Source: Pandoraea apista (GTDB taxonomy: Bacteria; Pseudomonadota; Gammaproteobacteria; Burkholderiales; Burkholderiaceae). From it: 64,000 nucleotides of DNA. Location: positions 2,356,001 through 2,420,000 of the forward strand of contig NZ_CP013481.2 of the NCBI RefSeq assembly GCF_001465595.2, in the 5' to 3' direction. The number at the start of each line of letters is the position of its first letter. Within the stretch, counting starts at the first letter, position 1. A program made the position numbers and the translations under genes. The notes under the pieces were generated by a model. The model saw only the letters and a program-made list of their open reading frames with translations, searched no databases and was not told the DNA's origin. Of the stretch, positions 28,700 through 38,832 are shown piece by piece.

Positions 28700-30058
28700 A
28701 TGGCTAACGATACCGGGCGCACCCTGATTTATGCCTCCCGAAAGCATAACGATGGCTTGCTGTCGTTTTTGGGGGAGCAAGGCTGGCAAGTCATGCCGGC
28801 CAAGAGCGCCAGCGACGTCGGTCGCATTCTGAACCCGGGGGTCACCAGCGCAGCACTCATTGACCTGGCGAGCGGTTATAGCGACCGCGAGATGGGCGCA
28901 TTCGAGTCCTGCATGCAACCTGCCACGGTTGGCTGGGTTGCGGCCACAAATCCCGAGCAACTTGCGACAACCGCGATTCGCCGGTTGATTCGCGATTACT
29001 GCTTCGACTACGTCAACGTTCCGTGCACAAACGATCAGCTCGCGCATTCGATCGGTCATGCGTGGGGCATGGCGTCGCTCTCGGAAGTGCCGACCTTCAC
29101 GCCCCAAGTCGGTGGCGATCAGGAAATGGTCGGAACGTGCGAGGCGATGCAGCAACTTTTCCGCACCATCCGCAAGGTCGCCAATACCGACGCACCGGTG
29201 TTCATCTCGGGCGAGTCGGGCACGGGCAAGGAACTGACGGCGGTGGCAATTCACGAGCGTTCGATGCGTGCGAAAGGGCCATTCGTGGCGATCAATTGCG
29301 GAGCGATTCCTCCGCACCTGATGCAGTCCGAACTATTCGGCTACGAGCGCGGCGCTTTCACCGGCGCGAATGCCCGTAAGATCGGACGCGTGGAAGCCGC
29401 CAACGGCGGCACGCTGCTGCTCGACGAAATCGGCGATCTGCCGTTCGAGAGCCAGGCGAGCCTGCTGCGTTTCCTTCAGCAGGGCGCTATTGAGCGTCTG
29501 GGCGGTCACGAGGTCATTCCGGTCAACGTGCGCATCATCTCCGCGACGCACGTGGATCTGGAGGAAGCTGTCAAGGAAGGCCGTTTCCGCATGGATCTCT
29601 ACCATCGCCTGTGTGTGCTGCGCGTGGAGGAACCGCCGCTGCGCGCGCGCGGACAAGATATCGAGATTCTCGCGCACCACGTGCTCCAACGCTTCAAAGG
29701 CGATAACCATCGCAAGATCCGCGGCTTCACGCAATGCGCGGTGCAGGCGATGTACGAATACCACTGGCCGGGTAACGTTCGCGAGCTGATCAATCGCGTG
29801 CGCCGCGCCATCGTCATGGCCGACAGCCGCACAATCTCAGCCAAGGATCTCGACTTGCTGCCGTGGGTGCCGACATTGGCACGCACGCTGGAAGAAATTC
29901 GCGCGGAGGCCGAACGAACGGCCATCGAGCAAGCACTGCTGCGTCACTGTCACCGGTTGACGGATGTGGCCGCAGAGCTGGGTATTTCACGCATTACCCT
30001 CTATCGGCTCATGTGCCGGTACGGATTGCGTGGTGACGAGTCGGGCGTGCCGGCCTGA
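28700..30058 (+). CDS. Sigma-54 activator (VpsR-like bEBP) beside the amyloid locus
   Basis: A 452-residue bacterial enhancer-binding protein. Residues about 1-125 form a receiver-like domain of the type seen in VpsR relatives, with Asp55 in ALIDLAS at the usual phospho-site. The AAA+ core has Walker A GESGTGKE (171-178), the sigma-54-contact loop GAFTGA (218-223), Walker B GGTLLLDEIGD and the arginine-finger region RFRMDLYHR. A Fis-type helix-turn-helix ends the protein (LTDVAAELGISRITLYRLMC). It probably drives the -24/-12 promoter at 30754 and hence the amyloid operon. VpsR itself responds to cyclic di-GMP; whether this one does is inference. Confidence 0.9.
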   Translation: MANDTGRTLIYASRKHNDGLLSFLGEQGWQVMPAKSASDVGRILNPGVTSAALIDLASGYSDREMGAFESCMQPATVGWVAATNPEQLATTAIRRLIRDYCFDYVNVPCTNDQLAHSIGHAWGMASLSEVPTFTPQVGGDQEMVGTCEAMQQLFRTIRKVANTDAPVFISGESGTGKELTAVAIHERSMRAKGPFVAINCGAIPPHLMQSELFGYERGAFTGANARKIGRVEAANGGTLLLDEIGDLPFESQASLLRFLQQGAIERLGGHEVIPVNVRIISATHVDLEEAVKEGRFRMDLYHRLCVLRVEEPPLRARGQDIEILAHHVLQRFKGDNHRKIRGFTQCAVQAMYEYHWPGNVRELINRVRRAIVMADSRTISAKDLDLLPWVPTLARTLEEIRAEAERTAIEQALLRHCHRLTDVAAELGISRITLYRLMCRYGLRGDESGVPA

Positions 30059-30079
30059 TATCTTCTGGCGAAGAGAGAG

Positions 30080-30117
30080 CGGCCGTCCTGTGATGAACAG
30101 GGCGGTCGTTTCTTTTT
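30080..30117 (+). terminator. Terminator after the sigma-54 activator gene
   Basis: CGGCCGTCCTG and CAGGGCGGTCG pair with G-T or mismatch at two positions around a 7-nt loop; a TTTCTTTTT run follows. Confidence 0.72.
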
Positions 30118-30481
30118 GGCCTCCTGACGATCGTCATGTCGATATGCCGGAATCGACGTAATTCACCAATGACGGCCCCGCTGCCGTCGCCAATCGAGAA
30201 TGCTGCCATCGCCAATAAAGACGGGCGATTCGGGCGTTTTCAGCGATGTTCCTGCCACCCTTTTCCCATACGCATTGCGTTGTCTCGCATTTCGAGTGAA
30301 CGCGTCCCGCGACGTTACCCGTGCCGGATGGCGATGGCGCATCGCGCGCTTCTCAAGTTCGCCCCGCCGCCATGTTTCTGGCTGTCGCCGCGCGGTAAAA
30401 AGCGGTACCAAGGGTTGTCCCGCGAACACATCAAAGATGAAACATCCGGCACGCCGCCCAGCGTCGTGCAGCGCGTGGCGC

Positions 30482-30543
30482 CATGTGACACCGCTGTGGC
30501 GATTTTCGGGAGACAAGCAAATTCGCCGCAAATCTGTCACATG
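30482..30543. repeat. Spaced inverted repeat, candidate enhancer site
   Basis: CATGTGACA (30482-30490) and TGTCACATG (30535-30543) are exact reverse complements 44 nt apart, about 210-270 nt upstream of the -24 element. The position suits an activator-binding enhancer for a sigma-54 promoter, but this is inference. Confidence 0.5.
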
Positions 30544-30753
30544 AAACCCTTGTAAATCAGGCGTCTTCGGCATACGTCGCTACTCGCGCCGATATCGTTC
30601 GCAGTTCGGAATGTTTGTGCATCGCGCGATTTCGCCGTCATCCGCGGCCAGACGCAGTCCACGTATCAATGCTGAAACGTTTTCACACACATGTCCTCGC
30701 ATGCCCACTGCTAGGAAAAATTAACGCCAATGATTTCAAACACTTAAGGTCGG

Positions 30754-30769
30754 TGGCACGGAAGTCGCT
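30754..30769 (+). promoter_or_regulatory. Sigma-54 (-24/-12) promoter of the amyloid operon
   Basis: TGGCACGGAAGTCGCT matches the TGGCACGN4TTGCW consensus with one substitution (T to C next to the -12 GC). GG (30755-30756) and GC (30767-30768) have the obligatory 10-nt separation. Transcription would start near 30780, just before AAGGAGG (30784-30790) and the ATG at 30799. The adjacent gene encodes a GAFTGA-type activator. Confidence 0.85.
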
Positions 30770-30798
30770 TTATTCAGTCGGGCAAGGAGGGCATAGCG

Positions 30799-31335
30799 AT
30801 GCGAATTCTCACCAACGAAATGCAGTACCGCGTACGACAAGGCGTCAGCGCACTGAGCGCAGCCATCGTCGTGACGCTCGGTCTGTGTGCCGTGCCGGCG
30901 CAAGCACAGGATGTCTCGCGCTCGCCGCTCATGCACCTCGCGATGCTGACCGGTTCGATGATGCCGGCATCGTTTGGCACGACGGCACTGCCGGTAACGT
31001 CGATCTCCGACGCCGATGCCAGCGTCCTGCCGCCGGTAGCCGCACAGGCCCCGGCAGACGAAACCCCCGCCATTGCGAACCGCGACGAGGGTAACGGCGC
31101 CAGCGACTCAGGCATGCCGCTCGCGGCCCGTATCGACGACGAACAACTCGGAAGCCAGCGCGGCCGCAATCTGCAGGGCGGCGCGATGGTCAAGTCACCC
31201 GGAATGGCGCTCGCCAACGGCGTTACGTTGTGGGACGAACTGCCTGGCGCCGTGACGCCGACGCCGCGTCCGCAACAACTGTCGAACGGCGTGAACAACC
31301 TCCAGGTGACGCGTGTGACTTACACGACGCGGTGA
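30799..31335 (+). CDS. Exported protein of unknown function with ANxVxLWDE motif, first gene of the amyloid operon
   Basis: A 178-residue protein. A signal peptide occupies about residues 1-36, ending VPAQAQ. The mature part has no recognised domain. Residues 112-128 (IDDEQLGSQRGRNLQGG) resemble double-glycine leader motifs, and residues 139-147 read ANGVTLWDE. The C-terminus (NLQVTRVTYTTR) is short and polar. A strong AAGGAGG lies 8 nt before the ATG. The position matches that of fapA in Pseudomonas operons, but I cannot show homology. A second protein with the same LWDE motif is encoded at 37255-37710. Confidence 0.8.
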   Translation: MRILTNEMQYRVRQGVSALSAAIVVTLGLCAVPAQAQDVSRSPLMHLAMLTGSMMPASFGTTALPVTSISDADASVLPPVAAQAPADETPAIANRDEGNGASDSGMPLAARIDDEQLGSQRGRNLQGGAMVKSPGMALANGVTLWDELPGAVTPTPRPQQLSNGVNNLQVTRVTYTTR

Positions 31336-31340
31336 ACAAG

Positions 31341-31853
31341 ATGACCCCACTCTCCATGACGCATGCCGGAAGTCTGCTCGCCACGATGATCGTGGCGCTG
31401 ACCCCGGCGATGCTGCCCGGCCATGCCCATGCCGAACCGGCCACGCCGGGCGACATCGTGGTCGAGCGCGACATCGGCCCGGAGATCGCGTATCGCGGTC
31501 TGCCGCGCGTCGAGAATCCCATCGCCGTCTCGGTGCCGGCTTTCCCGACGGGGCCGTTCAACACCGCCATGGGGGCCGTCAATCAGGTCACCGATGGTGA
31601 GTTGACCGGCCGCGGCAATGCGGGCCTCGTGACGGGTGCAGTGCAGTCGGGCATCAACCCGGTGATGGGGGTACTCGTAGGCAATGCCCGGGGCGGTAAC
31701 GCGCTGAATACCTCGAACGGCGTCGGTGGCGGATTTGGCGCCGGGGCGGGCGGTGGCGGCGGCATCGGCAGCATCGGCACGCTCGTGCCGTCGGTGATCG
31801 GCTCGGCGCTGGCACCGCTCACCAGTATTGGTGCGGCAGGAGCGGCGAAATGA
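31341..31853 (+). CDS. Exported glycine-rich protein of the amyloid operon
   Basis: A 170-residue protein with a signal peptide (to about residue 32, GHAHAEP). IAYRGLPRVENPIAVSVPAF is followed by Gly/Asn/Ala-rich sequence containing AVNQVTDGELTGRGNAG and a poly-glycine tract (GAGAGGGGGIGS, about 135-146). No known domain is seen; it may be a minor fibre component or chaperone. It lies 5 nt after the first operon gene. Start is uncertain: ATG 31341, ATG 31356, or GTG 31332 overlapping the preceding stop. Its stop overlaps the next start (ATGA). Confidence 0.75.
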   Translation: MTPLSMTHAGSLLATMIVALTPAMLPGHAHAEPATPGDIVVERDIGPEIAYRGLPRVENPIAVSVPAFPTGPFNTAMGAVNQVTDGELTGRGNAGLVTGAVQSGINPVMGVLVGNARGGNALNTSNGVGGGFGAGAGGGGGIGSIGTLVPSVIGSALAPLTSIGAAGAAK

Positions 31854-32500
31854 GCGCACATCGTGGGTGGCGTGGCGCGCAGCGCGCCCTTCCTCTGGCG
31901 GTAGCGGCTTTGCTGGCGGCGTTCGCCGGCGTGTCGTCGGCACAGGATGTGTGGATCACGAACGGCGAACTCACAGGCACTCACGCGACTATCGAGAGCG
32001 GTGTGGCGGTAGGCGTGACGGGGGCGCTGGGCGTGAATCAGGCGGCCGGGGTCAATAACGCGCAGGCCAACAGCGCAGTGATCGCGAACGGCGGCGGGTT
32101 GACGGTCGGCGCGTCGAGCACCAATCAACAAGCCCTCGTCACGTCGACGACCGGCGCGGCCAGCGCCGCAATTCAAGGCAACGCATTTTCAGGCACCTCG
32201 GGGCTGACGCAAGTCAACCAGGCGAGCGGTGCCGGCAATCTTCAACGCAACGCGACCGTCATTGTGACCGGCGATGCGTCTGGAGTGGCGAGCGTATCGG
32301 ATACGGCACTATCCGCTGCGATCTCCAAGGGTGGCCCGGCTGGGCGCGACAACCTCAACGATCACTTCCGCACGGCGTCGATTTCCGGTGACGCCTTCCG
32401 CGGTGCGAGCGGTGTGGTGCAAGTCAACCAGTCGGCTGGGATAGGCAATGTAACCGCAAATGTTTTTGTGCTCCGTCCCCCGGCGGGCACATCTTTTTAA
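31850..32500 (+). CDS. fapB: FapB-like minor amyloid subunit
   Basis: A 216-residue exported protein with a signal peptide to about residue 32 (AGVSSAQ). It carries three repeat units whose cores are GVNQAAGVNNAQAN, QVNQASGAGNLQRN and QVNQSAGIGNVTAN, starting near residues 61, 121 and 191. The pattern xVNQxxGxxNxxxN, with Asn/Gln ladders, is that of Fap fibre repeats. The linkers are Ser/Thr/Ala-rich. It is translationally coupled to the preceding gene. By order and repeat content it corresponds to FapB, the likely nucleator, though a second structural subunit is possible. Confidence 0.7.
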   Translation: MSAHRGWRGAQRALPLAVAALLAAFAGVSSAQDVWITNGELTGTHATIESGVAVGVTGALGVNQAAGVNNAQANSAVIANGGGLTVGASSTNQQALVTSTTGAASAAIQGNAFSGTSGLTQVNQASGAGNLQRNATVIVTGDASGVASVSDTALSAAISKGGPAGRDNLNDHFRTASISGDAFRGASGVVQVNQSAGIGNVTANVFVLRPPAGTSF

Positions 32501-32530
32501 CTGGGTAACTCTCTCGTCAAGGAGATGGTC

Positions 32531-33910
32531 ATGAAAACGAAAGCAATTGCAGCGGCTGCACTGCTGGTAGCAACGGGTAGCGCCCTGGCGTCGCCCAATC
32601 ACCAGCAATATAGCTTCTCGTTCATCGGCAACGAGACCAACGTTCTGAACCTGGTCGGCATTTTCGGTCTGGTCGGCATTCGCGGTTGCGTCACGGTGGA
32701 TAACACTGGCAACGCGGTCGTGCAAAGCAATCAGAGCGTAGACGTACATGGTGTGAATCTGAAGGGTCCGCTGCTTGGCACGTACACGACGGGCAAGGTG
32801 ACGTACGGCGTTGATTCGAAGACCACGACGGTGTCGAATCAAGGCAGTGCTTACCTGATCGGCGGTTCGACGACCACGCACTACGACAATTCCACGTCGT
32901 GGGTAAACGCCAGCGCGAACGGCCACCTGAACACGAGTCAGTCGTTCCAGGCGGGTGCCGGTTATGTGGCAGGGCAGTCCAGCTCGGGTTCGGGCGGCTT
33001 CATCGCAGGTGGCGGGTATCAATACTCGAACATCGCTGGCGGTGGAGGCATCATCGGTGGTGGCGTACTTCCGCTGCCGGGCGGTTTTGCACTGTATGGC
33101 GGCTACCTTGTCGGTAACTTCGGTGCTGGTCAGGGCTCGGCCTGGGGCGGTTATGCCTATGGCCAGCAATCGCAGCAGGCTGCAGGGTTCCTGGCGGCAG
33201 GCTTCCTGAACACGCAGAAGAGCTTCGATGCGGCGTTCCATGCGGTCCTGAACCACGGCAGTGCATCGATCGAGAGTAATTCGATCGCGGCAGGCGCATT
33301 GTGGGGCTTCCAGGATACGTACATGAAGTCCACCACGTGGGAAAAGGGTGCGCTCACGCTCCACGTCAACACCTCGACATTGCAGACGATGGGCGCAACG
33401 CTCGGTAGTGGCGCGCTGGCTAACGCCAACGGCAACATCGGCGTGAACGTGGCAGCAGGTGCCGACAACGCGCAGGCCAACAACGTCGCGATCGCTTCGC
33501 TCAACGCTCAGCCGGTGTATGCCTCGGCACAGGTGTTCGCGAACCAGTCGTCGAAGGGCTCGGCCAGCATCTCGCAGTTCTATGTCAACTCCAGCGTGGG
33601 TGATGGTGCCCTCGCCGGTGCGACCGGGAATGTGGGTGTGAACGTGGCGTCGGGTGTGGGCAACGTGCAGCAAAATGGTCTGGCCGCCGCAGTCTCGCAA
33701 GGCGGAACCGGCTGGTTCAAGGGCGGTGCAGCCAACTCGACGGCACAAACCGACCAAACGGCAAGCATGAAGGCCTCGGGCGACTTCATCGCCAACGCAT
33801 CGCTGGGCAATGGCGCACTCGCCTGGGCTAGCGGTAACGTCGGTGTGAACGTGGCTTCGGGTATCGGCAACGTGCAGGCCAACAGCCTCGCCATCTCGGC
33901 AATCAAGTGA
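32531..33910 (+). CDS. fapC: FapC-like major amyloid subunit with Gly/Tyr-rich N-terminal half
   Basis: A 459-residue exported protein (signal to about residue 21, ATGSALAS). Residues about 125-240 are rich in Gly, Tyr, Ser and Gln (GGGGIIGGGVLPLPGGFALY, AWGGYAYGQQSQQAAGFLAA). Three repeats at the C-terminus, near residues 291, 356 and 425, share GN[IV]GVNVA[AS]GxxNxQxN, the Fap fibre motif. There is one Cys, near residue 54 (RGCVTV). AAGGAG lies 6 nt before the ATG at 32531, making it preferable to the ATG at 32525. A strong terminator follows at once. The N-terminal half is not what I would expect of FapC. Confidence 0.78.
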   Translation: MKTKAIAAAALLVATGSALASPNHQQYSFSFIGNETNVLNLVGIFGLVGIRGCVTVDNTGNAVVQSNQSVDVHGVNLKGPLLGTYTTGKVTYGVDSKTTTVSNQGSAYLIGGSTTTHYDNSTSWVNASANGHLNTSQSFQAGAGYVAGQSSSGSGGFIAGGGYQYSNIAGGGGIIGGGVLPLPGGFALYGGYLVGNFGAGQGSAWGGYAYGQQSQQAAGFLAAGFLNTQKSFDAAFHAVLNHGSASIESNSIAAGALWGFQDTYMKSTTWEKGALTLHVNTSTLQTMGATLGSGALANANGNIGVNVAAGADNAQANNVAIASLNAQPVYASAQVFANQSSKGSASISQFYVNSSVGDGALAGATGNVGVNVASGVGNVQQNGLAAAVSQGGTGWFKGGAANSTAQTDQTASMKASGDFIANASLGNGALAWASGNVGVNVASGIGNVQANSLAISAIK

Positions 33911-33917
33911 TGTCGCT

Positions 33918-33949
33918 AACCGGTCCGGGAATTCCCGGACCGGTTTTTT
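33918..33949 (+). terminator. Perfect-palindrome terminator inside the amyloid operon
   Basis: A 28-nt perfect palindrome centred on GAATTC (33918-33945) runs directly into TTTTTTC and ends 13 nt before the next start codon. It should stop most transcripts after the FapC-like gene and let a fraction through to fapD-E. Confidence 0.9.
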
Positions 33950-33962
33950 CATGAGGTGTGTC

Positions 33963-34673
33963 ATGAATGATGCGCGTCGTGCCGCGGTAAGGATCGCTAC
34001 AGTTTGCGCTCTGGCGTGCGCAAGCGTGGCCGGGCACGCGCAGTATGCATCGGTGAATCTCGAGTCTTCGACTGGTGTACCGGCGGTCAAGAAGATGCGG
34101 TCGTTCAAATCGATGCACTACGTGAATCTGGTCCAGCAGGAATACGACTTCAGTTGTGGATCGGCAGCCTTGGCAACCCTGCTGCGTTATGGCTACGGGA
34201 TCGATATTCCCGAGCCGGAAATGATCCAGAAAATGATGGTGTTTTCCAATCCGGAAACGGTCATCAAGAATGGCTTCTCGATGCTCGACATGAAGAAATT
34301 CGTGGAGACGCTTGGACTCGAGGGCCGCGGTTTCAAAGTTGACGTGAACGCGCTTTACGACCTGAAGATCCCGGTCATCGCGCTGATCGACGTCAACGGC
34401 TATCAACATTTCGTGGTCATCAAGGCAGCGAAGGACGGGCGCGTGTTCGTGTCTGATCCGGCGCTCGGCAATCGCATCATCGAGCAAGCCGATTTTGCCA
34501 AGCAGTGGAACGGCTTGGTGCTGGCGGTCATCGGCAAGCCGTTTATGGAGGATTCACCGCTGCTCAAAGGAAACGAATCCCTGGCGGCCAAGCTGCGCGA
34601 CAGCGCGCTGGCGACCGGGACGTCACCGACCCCGATGGTGGATTTCGGCATCATCCGGGCGGACCTGTTTTGA
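33963..34673 (+). CDS. fapD: C39-family peptidase of the amyloid locus (FapD-like)
   Basis: A 236-residue protein with a signal peptide (to about residue 26, VAGHAQ), so the protease domain is periplasmic. The C39 motif QEYDFSCGSAALATLLRY contains catalytic Cys65; His149 in YQHFVVIKA and Asp165 in VSDPALGN complete the triad. There is no ABC-transporter part, unlike bacteriocin exporters; this matches FapD, which is needed for Fap export. GAGG lies 6 nt before ATG 33963; ATG 33951 is an alternative. Substrates are presumably fibre subunits or small operon proteins. Confidence 0.88.
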   Translation: MNDARRAAVRIATVCALACASVAGHAQYASVNLESSTGVPAVKKMRSFKSMHYVNLVQQEYDFSCGSAALATLLRYGYGIDIPEPEMIQKMMVFSNPETVIKNGFSMLDMKKFVETLGLEGRGFKVDVNALYDLKIPVIALIDVNGYQHFVVIKAAKDGRVFVSDPALGNRIIEQADFAKQWNGLVLAVIGKPFMEDSPLLKGNESLAAKLRDSALATGTSPTPMVDFGIIRADLF

Positions 34674-34685
34674 GATCAGACCATC

Positions 34686-35447
34686 ATGAACCGATATGTT
34701 CCGATGCTGGCAATCCCGCTGTTCGCGAGCGCGTTGCCGGCACTCGCGTCGAGCGTGGTGCCCGCAACATGGACGCCAGTGAGCGATGAAGTGCTCTCTC
34801 ACGCGACAGGCAAATACGCGCAACAAAACATGATCACGGGCTTCCAGCTCGTAATGCAATCGCAATGGCAAATGCCGACCGGTGCGAGCCTCGCCGCCAC
34901 CGGTGTGCTTGGCGTCAGTCAAGGGAGTTCCGGCGTGCAGGTGCAGACGGGGGCGGCGACGGGCATCATTCCCGGCCTCGTGAATGCGACCACGCCGCTT
35001 ACGCTGAGTGTTTCGGGGGCGGGGAGCGTACTCGTGAATGGCGTCGCGCAGATTACGCAGGTTGCGGGTGATGCAAACAATGCGCTGAATAAAGCCACAA
35101 TTCAGTTCGGCCCTGGGATATCGATCGCCACGCTGGTACCGGTCAGCGGGCAGGGCGCGAGCAATTCGCAGACAACGGTGGGTAATTTGAGTGCGAGCGT
35201 GGCCATTACGTCCGCAGGCATGCAAATCGCGCTCAATACGCCGAATGGCAATCTCGGCCAGAGCGTGGCTGGCGGCGCCGGGGCGGCGATGAACCAGATC
35301 ATGCAGGTCGTGCAGGTCGCGGGTAACGCGCAGCAGGTCATGAACACGATGCAGTTGAACCTGCAAACGAGCCCGCTCACCTCGAATGCGCTGCGTCAGG
35401 TGGGAATTCAGAACGCCATGGCGAACATGATCGCCGTGCGTCGATGA
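34686..35447 (+). CDS. fapE: FapE-like minor fibre component
   Basis: A 253-residue exported protein (signal to about residue 22, ALPALAS). The mature part is rich in Gln, Asn, Ala and Val with no Cys. The stretches INPGxxNAT-like GIIPGLVNATTPLTLSVSG, MQIALNTPNGNLGQSVAG and MNQIMQVVQVAGNAQQVMNT resemble FapE-type subunits. It follows fapD after 12 nt. Assignment rests on position and composition; a different matrix protein is possible. Confidence 0.68.
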   Translation: MNRYVPMLAIPLFASALPALASSVVPATWTPVSDEVLSHATGKYAQQNMITGFQLVMQSQWQMPTGASLAATGVLGVSQGSSGVQVQTGAATGIIPGLVNATTPLTLSVSGAGSVLVNGVAQITQVAGDANNALNKATIQFGPGISIATLVPVSGQGASNSQTTVGNLSASVAITSAGMQIALNTPNGNLGQSVAGGAGAAMNQIMQVVQVAGNAQQVMNTMQLNLQTSPLTSNALRQVGIQNAMANMIAVRR

Positions 35448-35752
35448 AGTGAAGGGCAAGTGAAGTCACGGCGTCGTGCTGTGCACGCACGGTACGACGC
35501 CACCAACAGTATCCGGCACTCAAGTAACGCCGGGTACGATGAAAACTAGAATGTGGGGCGTCGCCGCTGCGGTAATTGCGGCGCACAAGAAGGTGATGCC
35601 GGCAGGGCCCGTGCAATGACCTATCGAGGTGGATGGCAACGGGTTTCGCACGCATTACCCCGCAGTCGAGCAGCAAGGACAACGTTGTAGGTAATACGTG
35701 TTTTGTTGGATTGCGCGCGGACGCCCGTCCGCACCTTTACCCGGGGGGGATC
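35448..35752. other. Intergenic region upstream of the porin gene
   Basis: 305 nt holding a stem-loop (GGCGTCGT at 35470-35477 with ACGACGCC at 35494-35501, 16-nt loop, no T-tract) and a possible second -24/-12 promoter near 35600. The frame of the porin is open back to 35633 but without signal features. Confidence 0.55.
35599..35615 (+). promoter_or_regulatory. Possible second sigma-54 promoter, upstream of fapF
   Basis: CCGGCAGGGCCCGTGCA keeps the GG-N10-GC geometry (GG 35601-35602, GC 35613-35614) and the TGCA end, but has C for T in the -24 box and G for T in the -12 box. A transcript would start near 35626 with a 127-nt leader. Confidence 0.4.
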
Positions 35753-37084
35753 ATGAACACTCACCGCTTTTTTCCCGTTGCCGCTATTCCGTTGGGGGTA
35801 CTGCTTTTCACGCTATCGGCCCAGGCTCAGGAGCATACGAACCCATCGCCGGACGACCGTCTGCAAATGTTGATGGACATGGTCGACCGGCAGCAGCGGG
35901 AAATTTCTTCTCTGAAACAGCGCCTCACCGACATTGAGATGGCGCAACGCGGTCGTGGACTGACCGCATGGGACACTGCGCAGATTGCGCAGGTCTCACC
36001 CGGCGACGGTTCTGCCGCTGGCTCTGCAGGGACACCCGGCGGCGGCGCCGCCGGTGCTGCGGGTCCAACGAGCGCCGCGCCGATCGGTGAGACGCAGCAG
36101 ATGCAAAAGAGCGAGAGCGAATCGCAGCGCACCCCGGCCGAAGAAGCCGTGGTGCAGGCGCAGCACGCGCCGCTGTTTGATCGCAAGCTCACGATCGATG
36201 CCGGTATCAGTTACAGCTACTACGACCGACGCCAGCTCGTGTTGAGCGGCTTCCTTGCGCTCGACGCCATTTTCCTCGGTCAATTGAACCTCGGCGAGAC
36301 CAAAGCCAACGTGTGGACGTTCGACGTCAACACACGCTACGGCATCAGCGACCGGATGAGCGTGGCGTTCGACGTGCCGTACCTCTACCGCAATTCGGAC
36401 TTCATTTCGGGCGGGGTGGGCGGCGCAGCGTCATCGATCAGCGACATCAGCAAGAACTCGGCAAATATCGGCGACGTGAATGCGTCTCTGTACTACCAAA
36501 TCGTCAAGGAGAACGCGAACTGGCCCGATATCGTGGCGTCGTTCCGCGTGACCGCGCCAACCGGTACTTCGCCGTTCGGTATCAAGCTCGGTACGCCCGA
36601 TCCGACCAACAACAACCTGACGACGCCTTCGCGTCTGCCGACGGGGAACGGGATCTGGGCGTTCACGGCCGGCCTGTCGTTCCTGCGCACTTACGATCCG
36701 ATCGTGTTGTTCGCGAATGTGGCCTATACGTACAACGTGGCTCGCTCGTTCGACGATATCTCGACCATCGAAGGCACGACGCAACCCGCGAAGGTCAAGT
36801 TGGGCGACATCGTTCAGGTGGGCGCGGGGATGGCGTTGGCGCTCAACGACAAGACTGCGTTGTCGATCTCGTACTCGACGGCGATCTCTCGTGCGACGAA
36901 AACGGCTACGCCGGGTGGCCCGTGGACCACCGTGGCGGGCAGTACGACGAACGCGGCATCGCTCAACTTCGGTATCAATTACGCGATCAACAAGCATTGG
37001 ACCGTTAACGGTTACGTCAACGCCGGCATGTCGCCGGATGCGCCGAACTATGTGATCGGTCTGCGCTTCCCGTACACGTTCTGA
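35753..37084 (+). CDS. fapF: FapF-like outer-membrane export porin
   Basis: A 443-residue protein. The signal ends TLSAQAQ near residue 26. A heptad-like helix follows (DDRLQMLMDMVDRQQREISS, about 35-65), suiting the trimeric coiled coil of FapF. A Gly/Ala-rich linker then leads to a beta-barrel of alternating strands from about residue 145 (LTIDAGISYSYYDRRQLVLS) to the end. The terminal GLRFPYTF, closing with Phe, is a BAM recognition signal. GGGGGGGAT precedes ATG 35753. FapF forms the pore through which Fap subunits leave the cell. Confidence 0.85.
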   Translation: MNTHRFFPVAAIPLGVLLFTLSAQAQEHTNPSPDDRLQMLMDMVDRQQREISSLKQRLTDIEMAQRGRGLTAWDTAQIAQVSPGDGSAAGSAGTPGGGAAGAAGPTSAAPIGETQQMQKSESESQRTPAEEAVVQAQHAPLFDRKLTIDAGISYSYYDRRQLVLSGFLALDAIFLGQLNLGETKANVWTFDVNTRYGISDRMSVAFDVPYLYRNSDFISGGVGGAASSISDISKNSANIGDVNASLYYQIVKENANWPDIVASFRVTAPTGTSPFGIKLGTPDPTNNNLTTPSRLPTGNGIWAFTAGLSFLRTYDPIVLFANVAYTYNVARSFDDISTIEGTTQPAKVKLGDIVQVGAGMALALNDKTALSISYSTAISRATKTATPGGPWTTVAGSTTNAASLNFGINYAINKHWTVNGYVNAGMSPDAPNYVIGLRFPYTF

Positions 37085-37254
37085 TCGCGCGTGCGGCGCG
37101 TAGTCTGGCAGGACAAGGCAGGGCAAAAGCGACCTGCGCGTCACCCGGATCGGTGGCGCGCAGCATCACTGGGGAAGGGAACGTGAGAGCGAGGTTGAAG
37201 ACGCGGCGGCGGTGTTTGCTGTGTCAGACCTGTCGGTGCTTTCCGTCCGGCGAC

Positions 37255-37710
37255 TCAGTGCGAAATGCCGGCGGGAAGGCGGCCGGCGCTGGCGTTGACT
37301 TTCAGGCTTGTCGTCTGCAATCCCGATGCCAGGGACGAGGGCGAGTTAGGAGAGTACGACGACATCGAGACGGCCGGCGCGGGTTGCCCCGGCAATCTCA
37401 TCGTTGCCTGAGTGGGTTTGGGTGCGGGCGCAGGCGGAATCACTTCGTCCCATAGACGAACGTTGTTGGCGACAGTGGTGGTTGTGTTTGTCGCATTGAC
37501 GGGCACGGCCGTGGCAGGCGCCACGCCGGACAGATTGGCGACGACACTGTGCTGAAAGTTCGCCGCGCGTGTGCTGGCGAGCAACGCGTCGCTTACGCTG
37601 GCAGACACTCCGGCGCCACCGGTAATGTCGGCCTGTGCGGCACTTGCAAAGCATGCAGCCGCCAGACAAAACATGGCACTGCGCGTCGTCTTGACGGTGA
37701 TTCTGATCAT
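37255..37710 (-). CDS. Exported protein of unknown function with ANxVxLWDE motif, right flank of the amyloid locus
   Basis: A 151-residue protein with a signal peptide (to about residue 27, ASAAQA). Residues 81-89 read ANNVRLWDE, followed by Pro-rich sequence (PPAPAPKPTQ), as in the first operon gene, where ANGVTLWDE is followed by a PTPRP stretch. No domain is recognised. GGGGGG precedes the ATG at 37710. It is convergent with fapF and divergent from the LuxR regulator, so it is probably a separately controlled accessory gene of the locus. Confidence 0.72.
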   Translation of the reverse strand: MIRITVKTTRSAMFCLAAACFASAAQADITGGAGVSASVSDALLASTRAANFQHSVVANLSGVAPATAVPVNATNTTTTVANNVRLWDEVIPPAPAPKPTQATMRLPGQPAPAVSMSSYSPNSPSSLASGLQTTSLKVNASAGRLPAGISH

Positions 37711-38106
37711 GGCGTGCCCCCCGGCCTCCGCGTGCTGTTCGCTCAGCACTGCTTGTATTCTATTGCGCGATTTGAGAAAGGAAAGGGGAAAAAGTAATAG
37801 CGGAATTTCCGAAATTTGAGTAAATAATTTACGCAGATTGCGGTTTGTCGCACGGAGGCAACAATGATAGGCGTCTCCTAGGCCGAGACGTGCCGTCATG
37901 CGGGCTTCGCGCGTAAACTGAGCCGAGAGCGAGGTGACGCCTGATGCGTAAAAGATGACGAATGCTGGAGGATTTCCTCGGTTTTCGTTACGGCGATGGG
38001 GATGATTGTTATTTCCCGGGCCGACAAACAAAGCATGCGACGGGCGTGACAAGAAAAAGCGGGGGACGGCGGCACGAAAGTGCTGACCGGAACGACAGGG
38101 GAAACC
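37711..38106. other. Divergent regulatory region with two small palindromes
   Basis: 396 nt between the LWDE gene and the LuxR gene. It contains CGGAATTTCCG (37801-37811) and GTAAATAATTTAC (37820-37832), both perfect inverted repeats about 20 nt apart centre to centre, in an AT-rich patch. On the minus strand a TAGAAT box lies in the stretch just upstream of the LWDE gene. Confidence 0.55.
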
Positions 38107-38832
38107 ATGCGTGTGCTGGTCGTGGGTGAGGCTGCTACCTGGCTGAGCGGCCTGCAAGTCGCGTTGCAGATCGAAGCGAACGCGACACCGCCGGTCTTGC
38201 GTCACGTCGACGATGTGAGCGTGCAAGACTGGGTTTGGTTGCGCGAATTGCCGTCGCGTCGCGCGCTCGTACTCGAAGAGTCCGTGGCCCGAACGCCTGC
38301 TGTCGACACCTTGTGTGCGATGGCGGCCGAATGCGTGCCGGCGGTACCCGTCATTGTCATCGGCGATGCGGGTTTTCCCGATGAGATCATTCGCTGGTTG
38401 CAGGCAGGCGTTGCCGCATGCCTGCCATGGCCGAGTTCGGTCGCACGAATTCGTTCGGTTTTCGACCTTGTGTTCGCGGGCGGCCGATTCGTGCCGGACG
38501 AGGCGCTCTCGGCGTTACTTGTCCTCTGGCGGCAGGAGGCCATGGGCGAGGCTTTGCCACTCTCGCGTCTGCCGGTATTTCCGCTGGGTGGCGACAAGGC
38601 GACACAACTGGCCGAGTCGGCGCTGCTCGGCATCTCTCAGCGGCAATACGAAATTCTCGCACTGCTATCGCGCGGTTTATCCATCAAAACAATCTGCCAG
38701 CAACTGGTGATTTCCGAGGGAACCGCCAAGACGCACGTGTCTGCCTTGTACCGCCGGCTTGGCGCGCGCAATCGCGGCGAGGCGATCTATATTGCGGCGC
38801 AGCGCGGCGCGCGTCATCTGTTCGAGACATGA
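38107..38832 (+). CDS. LuxR-family response regulator with degenerate receiver
   Basis: A 241-residue two-domain regulator. The N-terminal half follows a receiver fold (MRVLVVGEAATWLSGLQVAL; PVIVIGDAGFPDEIIRWLQA). The expected phospho-Asp position reads LVLEES (Glu57), the early acidic pair is missing and the usual Lys is Pro, so classical phosphorylation is unlikely. The C-terminal GerE-type helix-turn-helix is intact (SQRQYEILALLSRGLSIKTI, EGTAKTHVSALYRRLGARNR). It closes the amyloid locus and probably controls it or the divergent LWDE gene. Confidence 0.86.
   Translation: MRVLVVGEAATWLSGLQVALQIEANATPPVLRHVDDVSVQDWVWLRELPSRRALVLEESVARTPAVDTLCAMAAECVPAVPVIVIGDAGFPDEIIRWLQAGVAACLPWPSSVARIRSVFDLVFAGGRFVPDEALSALLVLWRQEAMGEALPLSRLPVFPLGGDKATQLAESALLGISQRQYEILALLSRGLSIKTICQQLVISEGTAKTHVSALYRRLGARNRGEAIYIAAQRGARHLFET

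Follow-up and report, generated by a model that had tools for sequence, protein, structure and literature searches.

The window analysed here is a stretch of 64,000 nucleotides from the genome of Pandoraea apista (contig NZ_CP013481.2), and the system of interest within it, at positions 28700-38832, comprises a gene for a sigma-54 activator, fapX and fapABCDEF, all on the forward strand, followed by fapX2 on the reverse strand and a gene for a LuxR-type regulator. Judged from its genes alone, the Fap amyloid locus that Pandoraea carries here is complete. A preliminary description of this DNA had proposed a Fap-type functional amyloid locus, and the genes it named are indeed all open and lie in the order it gave. 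Each of the six Fap proteins was recognised by its NCBIfam model, with strong matches for FapF and FapD and a weak one for FapA (Table 1), and the order fapABCDEF, judged from these matches and from comparison of loci, is that of Fap systems. The profile search could have overturned the proposal at FapF and FapD; both matched Fap profiles, although 0/6 Fap proteins of the window reached the curated NCBIfam equivalog cut-offs. Since none of the sampled genomes exceeds these cut-offs either (FapE 0/299, FapF 0/369, FapD 0/299, in a family sample of 299 and a class sample of 369 genomes), we read the low scores as distance from the models' own clade and not as exclusion. The synteny comparison that the preliminary description had called for recovered the gene block recR-EBP-X-fapABCDEF-acc(-)-luxR, in which EBP (enhancer-binding protein) is the activator and acc is fapX2, in 18/18 same-genus loci fetched (L031-L048); the arrangement is thus not due to chance. 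Counts given throughout cover related genomes and are not independent of one another.

Most of the individual assignments held as well, including the sigma-54 activator, the LuxR-type regulator and the FapE-like protein. FapD matched the C39 domains of bacteriocin ABC (ATP-binding cassette) transporters in a search of PDB sequences (best 1.3e-8) and is a stand-alone exported peptidase (signal peptides were assigned by eye, here and below) in which the triad C69, H153 and D169 is intact. The porin, whose start is probably at 35753, matched the solved FapF 5o65 over the barrel (1.1e-78), and residues 283-458 of FapC matched the solved FapC structures 9nqd (2.3e-13) and 9u4u (2.5e-13). For the subunits and the barrel, such sequence matches to known structures took the place of predicted folds. 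FapB and FapC each carry the usual three imperfect repeats, which counts against the different subunit architecture that had been claimed. The long N-terminal extension of FapC is also present in Paraburkholderia-type loci, judged by length. At two loci elsewhere (L109 and L120) the FapC-like proteins have 761 and 634 amino acids with 9 and 8 half-repeats, respectively, counted with a simple pattern that finds 0-3 in other loci. Other claims stood in part: of two supposedly novel exported proteins, FapX is without a family match and the second is FapA, and the proposed regulator-accessory pair does consist of a LuxR gene divergent from an exported minus-strand gene, the accessory being a FapX paralogue, fapX2.

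Table 1. Features of the Pandoraea Fap locus, in window coordinates
Feature	Position	Strand	Evidence
Activator (EBP), VpsR-domain sigma-54, fap-adjacent	28700..30058	+	PF20161 VpsR 9.2e-22, PF00158 4.4e-69, Fis-type helix-turn-helix
Terminator-like hairpin 3' of activator gene	30077..30111	+	15 pairs, T-rich tail
Sigma-54 -24/-12 promoter-like site TGGCACG-GAAG-TCGCT	30754..30769	+	11/12 consensus positions
fapX, exported 178-amino-acid protein, predicted disordered	30799..31335	+	no Pfam/NCBIfam match
C39-leader-like motif IDDEQLGSQRGR in FapX, residues 112-123	31132..31167	+	
LWDE core of FapX, residues 144-147	31228..31239	+	invariant in alignments A3 and A5
fapA, chaperone-type; start set at MTPLS, uncertain	31341..31853	+	NF058617 2.7e-7
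fapB, three repeats	31850..32500	+	NF058557 4.2e-24
fapC, three C-terminal repeats, long N-terminal extension	32525..33910	+	NF058558 1.4e-17; PDB 9nqd
Terminator-like hairpin fapC/fapD, 12 bp	33918..33945	+	hairpin scan
fapD, exported C39 peptidase	33951..34673	+	NF058616 2.7e-60; PDB C39 domains
fapE	34686..35447	+	NF058559 1.2e-15
C39-leader-like motif VSDEVLSHATGK in FapE, residues 32-43	34779..34814	+	
fapF, outer-membrane transporter	35753..37084	+	NF058560 1.3e-110; PDB 5o65 1.1e-78
fapX2, FapX paralogue, exported, convergent to fapF	37255..37710	-	profile-profile E 3.5e-7, probability 93
LuxR-type regulator, divergent from fapX2	38107..38832	+	PF00196 9.7e-13

FapX matched no Pfam or NCBIfam family; as judged from its sequence relatives, it represents a family that the searched libraries do not contain and whose members stand first in Fap operons far outside Pandoraea. 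First protein searches returned 38 homologues of FapX and 47 of the 151-amino-acid fapX2 product, the named ones all from Pandoraea, and a wider family was assembled through alignments A3, A5 and A6. FapX ends in a layout consisting of a D-x-x-L...RG motif, the residues V-T-L-W-D-E about 32 residues from the start of the motif, and a tail of about 31 residues. Paraburkholderia-type Fap loci encode at the fapX position an exported protein with a like C-terminal layout, which recurs in distant families, at the Fap loci L050, L105, L106, L107, L115, L117 and L119; the tail in distant loci often ends in GxNNxQxN-like residues, an ending that, in our reading, recalls the end of the FapB/FapC repeat. 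The wider search gave 297 matches, and the named ones among the 120 listed are Paraburkholderia, Trinickia and Burkholderia; P. xenovorans LB400, Trinickia and Pararobbsia are among the named carriers. AlphaFold2 gave no fold for FapX (mean predicted local distance difference test score 48), and the protein is predicted to be disordered, which would suit an export substrate or a chaperone. A search of the open-access literature found neither FapX nor the FapD leader motif described below in print.

In the genomes sampled, strong FapX matches mostly accompany FapD. A model of this C-terminal part (A5) matched 127 of the 299 family-sample genomes, 82 of them strongly (E<1e-15), and the strong matches fell in 79 of the 90 FapD-positive genomes (Fap-type FapD at E <= 1e-50) versus 3 of the 209 others (G076, G225 and G248; Fisher p 6e-56, kinship ignored). 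Sixty-eight loci were fetched from these 79 genomes, the remainder being Pandoraea, including the window. In 66 of the 68, FapX precedes fapA and has the same orientation; in the other two the called fapA open reading frame (ORF) overlaps X, which we attribute to an over-long fapA start. Across the class sample, FapX was detected in 11/369 genomes including the window's own and, with the latter excluded, in 7 of the 16 distant genomes encoding FapF at E<1e-60; all 10 matches outside the window's own genome adjoin relatives of FapB, FapD or FapF.

The promoter-like site TGGCACGGAAGTCGCT ends 29 nucleotides upstream of fapX, and none of 200 shuffled sequences equalled its score. Sites scoring 9-11 out of 12 are found near the called X start in 66 of the 68 Fap loci (exceptions L091 and L162) as well as in the window, and in 46 of 48 rows of orphan X' genes, that is, genes for LWDE proteins at loci without FapD (exceptions L219 and the paralogue row L222). 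A score of 9 is not uncommon among shuffled sequences, at up to 13% for some rows. Among the fapX2 paralogue rows, 2/15 score 9-10, at -183 and -298, and the remainder 5-8. Because a promoter-like site directly upstream recurs at X genes elsewhere in the Burkholderiaceae, fapX probably heads an operon driven by sigma-54. Furthermore, the activator model matched at E<1e-100 one or more times in each of the 68 FapX/FapD loci. Two such matches are present in 47 loci, among them L091, L093, L095-L098 and L100, and one in 21; in L098, one activator lies upstream and the other downstream of the fap operon. The LuxR model matched 20 ORFs among the loci scanned, a single one in the window, in each of L031-L048 and in L099, and the LuxR gene and fapX2 are, as far as seen, confined to Pandoraea. 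The preliminary description did not recognise the locus as described. In this it was partly mistaken: Pandoraea is named as a Fap carrier in PMC6173800, and published for P. fluorescens are both BrfA of strain PF07, a fap-adjacent sigma-54 activator responsive to cyclic di-GMP, and a -24/-12 promoter of fapA-E (PMC9207406, PMC13101488), so that dedicated regulation is not new in kind. It was right with respect to FapX.

Two hairpins punctuate the locus. The one downstream of the activator gene is weak by itself, since the scan gave 10 such sites compared with 10.2 in shuffles. The 12-bp hairpin between fapC and fapD is perfect, is followed by four T residues and has an equivalent in 17/17 loci (the window and L031-L046), whereas it differs in L047 and L048; it could lower the expression of fapDEF relative to that of the subunits.

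Double-glycine leaders cut by C39 peptidases follow the consensus LSxxELxxIxGG, with L at -12, E or V at -8, L at -7 and G at -2. FapE and FapX share a motif that keeps this register, with an aliphatic residue at -12, Leu or Met at -7 and Gly at -2. In FapE of 39 aligned loci it forms a block after the signal peptide, such as LSDEELGGLRGRY or VDDDVLAHQTGKY, and the strict pattern [LIVMA]x[DES]xx[LM]xxx[RT]G[KR] was found in FapE at 38/39, compared with FapA 0/29, FapB 0/35, FapC 0/38, FapD 0/39 and FapF 5/40, the five FapF matches sitting at the end of the coiled coil, on its boundary with the linker. In a second, named set of loci, which overlaps the family sample in species, 68/73 FapE proteins carry the strict pattern. 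The relaxed pattern [LIVM]x[DEN]xx[LM]xxx[RTSNHQ]G lies mid-protein in 68/68 FapX at loci with FapD, where it ends in GG in 34/49 non-Pandoraea proteins and in GR in 19/19 from Pandoraea, and the motif is present in 75/75 FapX at loci with FapD in the named set. With Gly or Ala allowed at -2, the pattern also fits 15/15 fapX2 products, two of which keep Gly. Altogether, the relaxed motif occurs in 83/83 LWDE proteins at FapD loci (19 + 49 FapX and 15 fapX2), versus 1.3 expected from shuffles. Moreover, FapE and FapX from one locus mostly have residues of the same class at -4, which is no more than suggestive given the kinship among loci. In the window, the end of the FapF coiled coil, in the N-terminal part of the protein, reads LTDIEMAQRGRG, which is near the leader motif and one residue short of it.

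Loci without FapD present a different picture. Among 48 LWDE proteins of the family sample with no FapD at the locus, the motif is kept in 3 (0.5 expected from shuffles), two of them on short contigs of the fragmented assembly G248 and the third in G076. These orphans were detected through the LWDE part, and the set thus consists of proteins that retain it. One genome, G228, has an intact FapX at a Fap locus (L094) and a motif-less orphan elsewhere (L140). Three orphan loci, L134, L137 and L139, to which our statements on gene order are confined, were read gene by gene, with gene names assigned by us from the sequences; each has the activator gene, X' and folA, and thyA precedes the activator wherever the ORF calls permit it. 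The Fap-bearing loci L098 and L084 read thyA-activator-X-fap-activator-folA and activator-X-fap-folA, respectively. Orphan loci therefore look like sites from which the fap genes were lost and X' was left behind, and the presence of both kinds within each of the genera g27, g36 and g41 suggests several losses. The orphan X' genes (n=21, about 108 amino acids) show a ratio of nonsynonymous to synonymous substitution rates (dN/dS) of 0.12 around LWDE and 0.41 overall and, by this measure, are not plainly dead. The activator beside orphan X' was considered as BerB and rejected, since berB is BCAM1342 beside the bep cluster and the orphan adjoins thyA/folA. Separately, four loci (L121, L122, L149 and L150) combine a sigma-54 activator with FapD- and FapF-like genes and lack the full fap set, L149 and L150 also encoding an LWDE protein with a leader-like motif; they possibly represent a sister secretion system.

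The interpretation that we favour, with a probability of roughly 0.55, is that sigma-54 and the neighbouring VpsR-type activator turn on a seven-gene operon, fapX-fapABCDEF, and that FapD cuts two of its products at the shared motif. The Fap proteins would all reach the periplasm by Sec, where FapD, as a stand-alone C39 peptidase, would recognise the double-glycine-type leader motif after the signal peptide of FapE and in the middle of FapX. Cleavage at the motif would release FapE in its mature form and, from the C-terminus of FapX, a peptide of about 55 residues, comprising LWDE and a tail resembling half a Fap repeat, and this peptide might act in export through FapF or else anchor or cap the FapB/FapC fibre. 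According to PMC5557850, the active-site Cys of FapD is required for FapC secretion, FapE stands alone among the Fap proteins in being completely processed at the N-terminus, the FapF linker is possibly processed and the target of FapD is unclear; PMC12822426 has the FapE N-terminus and the periplasmic part of FapF only 'thought' to be targets. FapX and FapE are candidate FapD substrates because the motif fits proteins reported or presumed to be processed, and adds FapX to them.

Several observations weigh against this interpretation. Fap proteins are stated to lack canonical C39 sites, and no FapE peptides were recovered from the first ~70 residues, so that a cut further in would be allowed (PMC5557850). 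The motifs of the window end in GR (FapX) and GK (FapE) and thus lack Gly/Ala at -1; 13/15 fapX2 products have Ala at -2; and at L119 the -4 residue classes of FapE and FapX disagree. Pfam leader models gave no significant match on 10 FapX relatives or 10 FapE proteins, nor did NCBIfam leader models on 10 FapX relatives or on a mix of 6 FapE and 4 FapX; the best generic match was TIGR03898 on one FapE (E 0.91), and when the FapE motif stretch of L105 was searched against the PDB, only a designed protein was returned (E 0.036). Both motif patterns were written after the sequences had been viewed, with shuffling as the sole control. FapX was not found in 11 of the 90 FapD-positive family-sample genomes; at Fap loci of genera g19, g21 and g40 neither the LWDE pattern nor the model detected it, and these loci may hold a diverged form. 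Four loci of the named set have FapX without FapD, and three of them keep the motif (L253, where another fap gene is present, L273 and L274), which speaks against a strict rule, although these could be recent losses; L286 is degraded, and a further locus of the set, L265, has no LWDE ORF. Finally, because FapD, FapE and FapF mostly disappear as a group, the motif is tied to the Fap machinery and not to FapD alone.

This joint absence at orphan loci also favours an alternative in which FapX is no protease substrate and the D-x-x-L...RG motif of FapX and FapE serves as a docking site for another Fap component, the periplasmic coiled coil of FapF or FapA, with FapX acting as a disordered FapA-like chaperone. 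The predicted disorder of FapX, which parallels the description of FapA in PMC12822426, also fits that role. However, the motif keeps the C39 register, and FapX often has the GG ending; moreover, the strictest bearer of the motif, FapE, is the very protein reported to be N-terminally processed (PMC5557850). We regard docking as possible but rather doubtful. The orphans bear on another alternative, namely that FapX belongs primarily to the activator's regulon, works without Fap and was recruited to the fap genes where these are present: beside the activator and without fap, X' retains a signal peptide, the sigma-54-like site in nearly all rows and, as the dN/dS values indicate, a constrained LWDE. 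Yet outside the family every one of the 10 class-sample matches adjoins a Fap relative, and the orphan tail has lost its repeat-like end; we consider this alternative unlikely. That the locus is an ordinary fapABCDEF operon preceded by an incidental ORF, whose motif arose by chance or low complexity, would agree with the earlier record of Fap in Pandoraea (PMC6173800) and with the FapD-positive genomes in which FapX was missed; it is very improbable given the frequency of the motif (83/83 versus 1.3 expected), the conserved promoter-like site and position of fapX, and the purifying selection.

Returning to cleavage by FapD, we advance a bolder version only tentatively: FapX may be an overlooked seventh Fap component, a periplasmic propeptide cut by FapD whose LWDE peptide gates FapF or caps the fibre, the motif being a general FapD code shared with FapE and some FapF linkers, and FapX having been kept after fap loss in Burkholderia relatives as a free-standing, sigma-54-controlled exported factor. 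FapD activity is described as essential for Fap secretion and its target as unclear (PMC5557850), and the shared motif offers an exact, testable site. FapX would also be a conserved component invisible to surveys with six-gene hidden Markov models, and the loci without fap genes show, as a natural experiment, which features may depend on the Fap machinery.

Compared with known systems, the adjoining sigma-54 activator and the -24/-12 promoter ahead of the first fap gene recall, in their position, the BrfA arrangement described in PMC9207406 and PMC13101488; the activator of the window differs in lying upstream of fap on the same strand. The FilB/FilC models (NCBIfam 'putative pilus system') are second best for FapD (5e-37) and FapF (1.3e-12), with scores far below those of the Fap models. 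The bacteriocin leaders cut by C39 peptidases have the same register (L-12, E/V-8, L-7, G-2), whereas FapX and FapE are Sec-exported with the motif internal or after the signal peptide, the -1 residue of the Fap motif is often K, R or T, and FapD is periplasmic and lacks an ABC transporter. Fap operons have been reported in Burkholderia, Ralstonia and others (PMC3792158). The closest counterpart is the Pseudomonas fapABCDEF operon, which has the same six genes in the same order, three repeats in FapB and FapC, the FapF barrel and a stand-alone C39 peptidase; relative to it, every match of the window lies below the curated NCBIfam cut-offs, FapC is about 200 amino acids longer than the solved FapC, and the locus adds fapX as its first gene together with fapX2 (in Pandoraea) and a LuxR gene.

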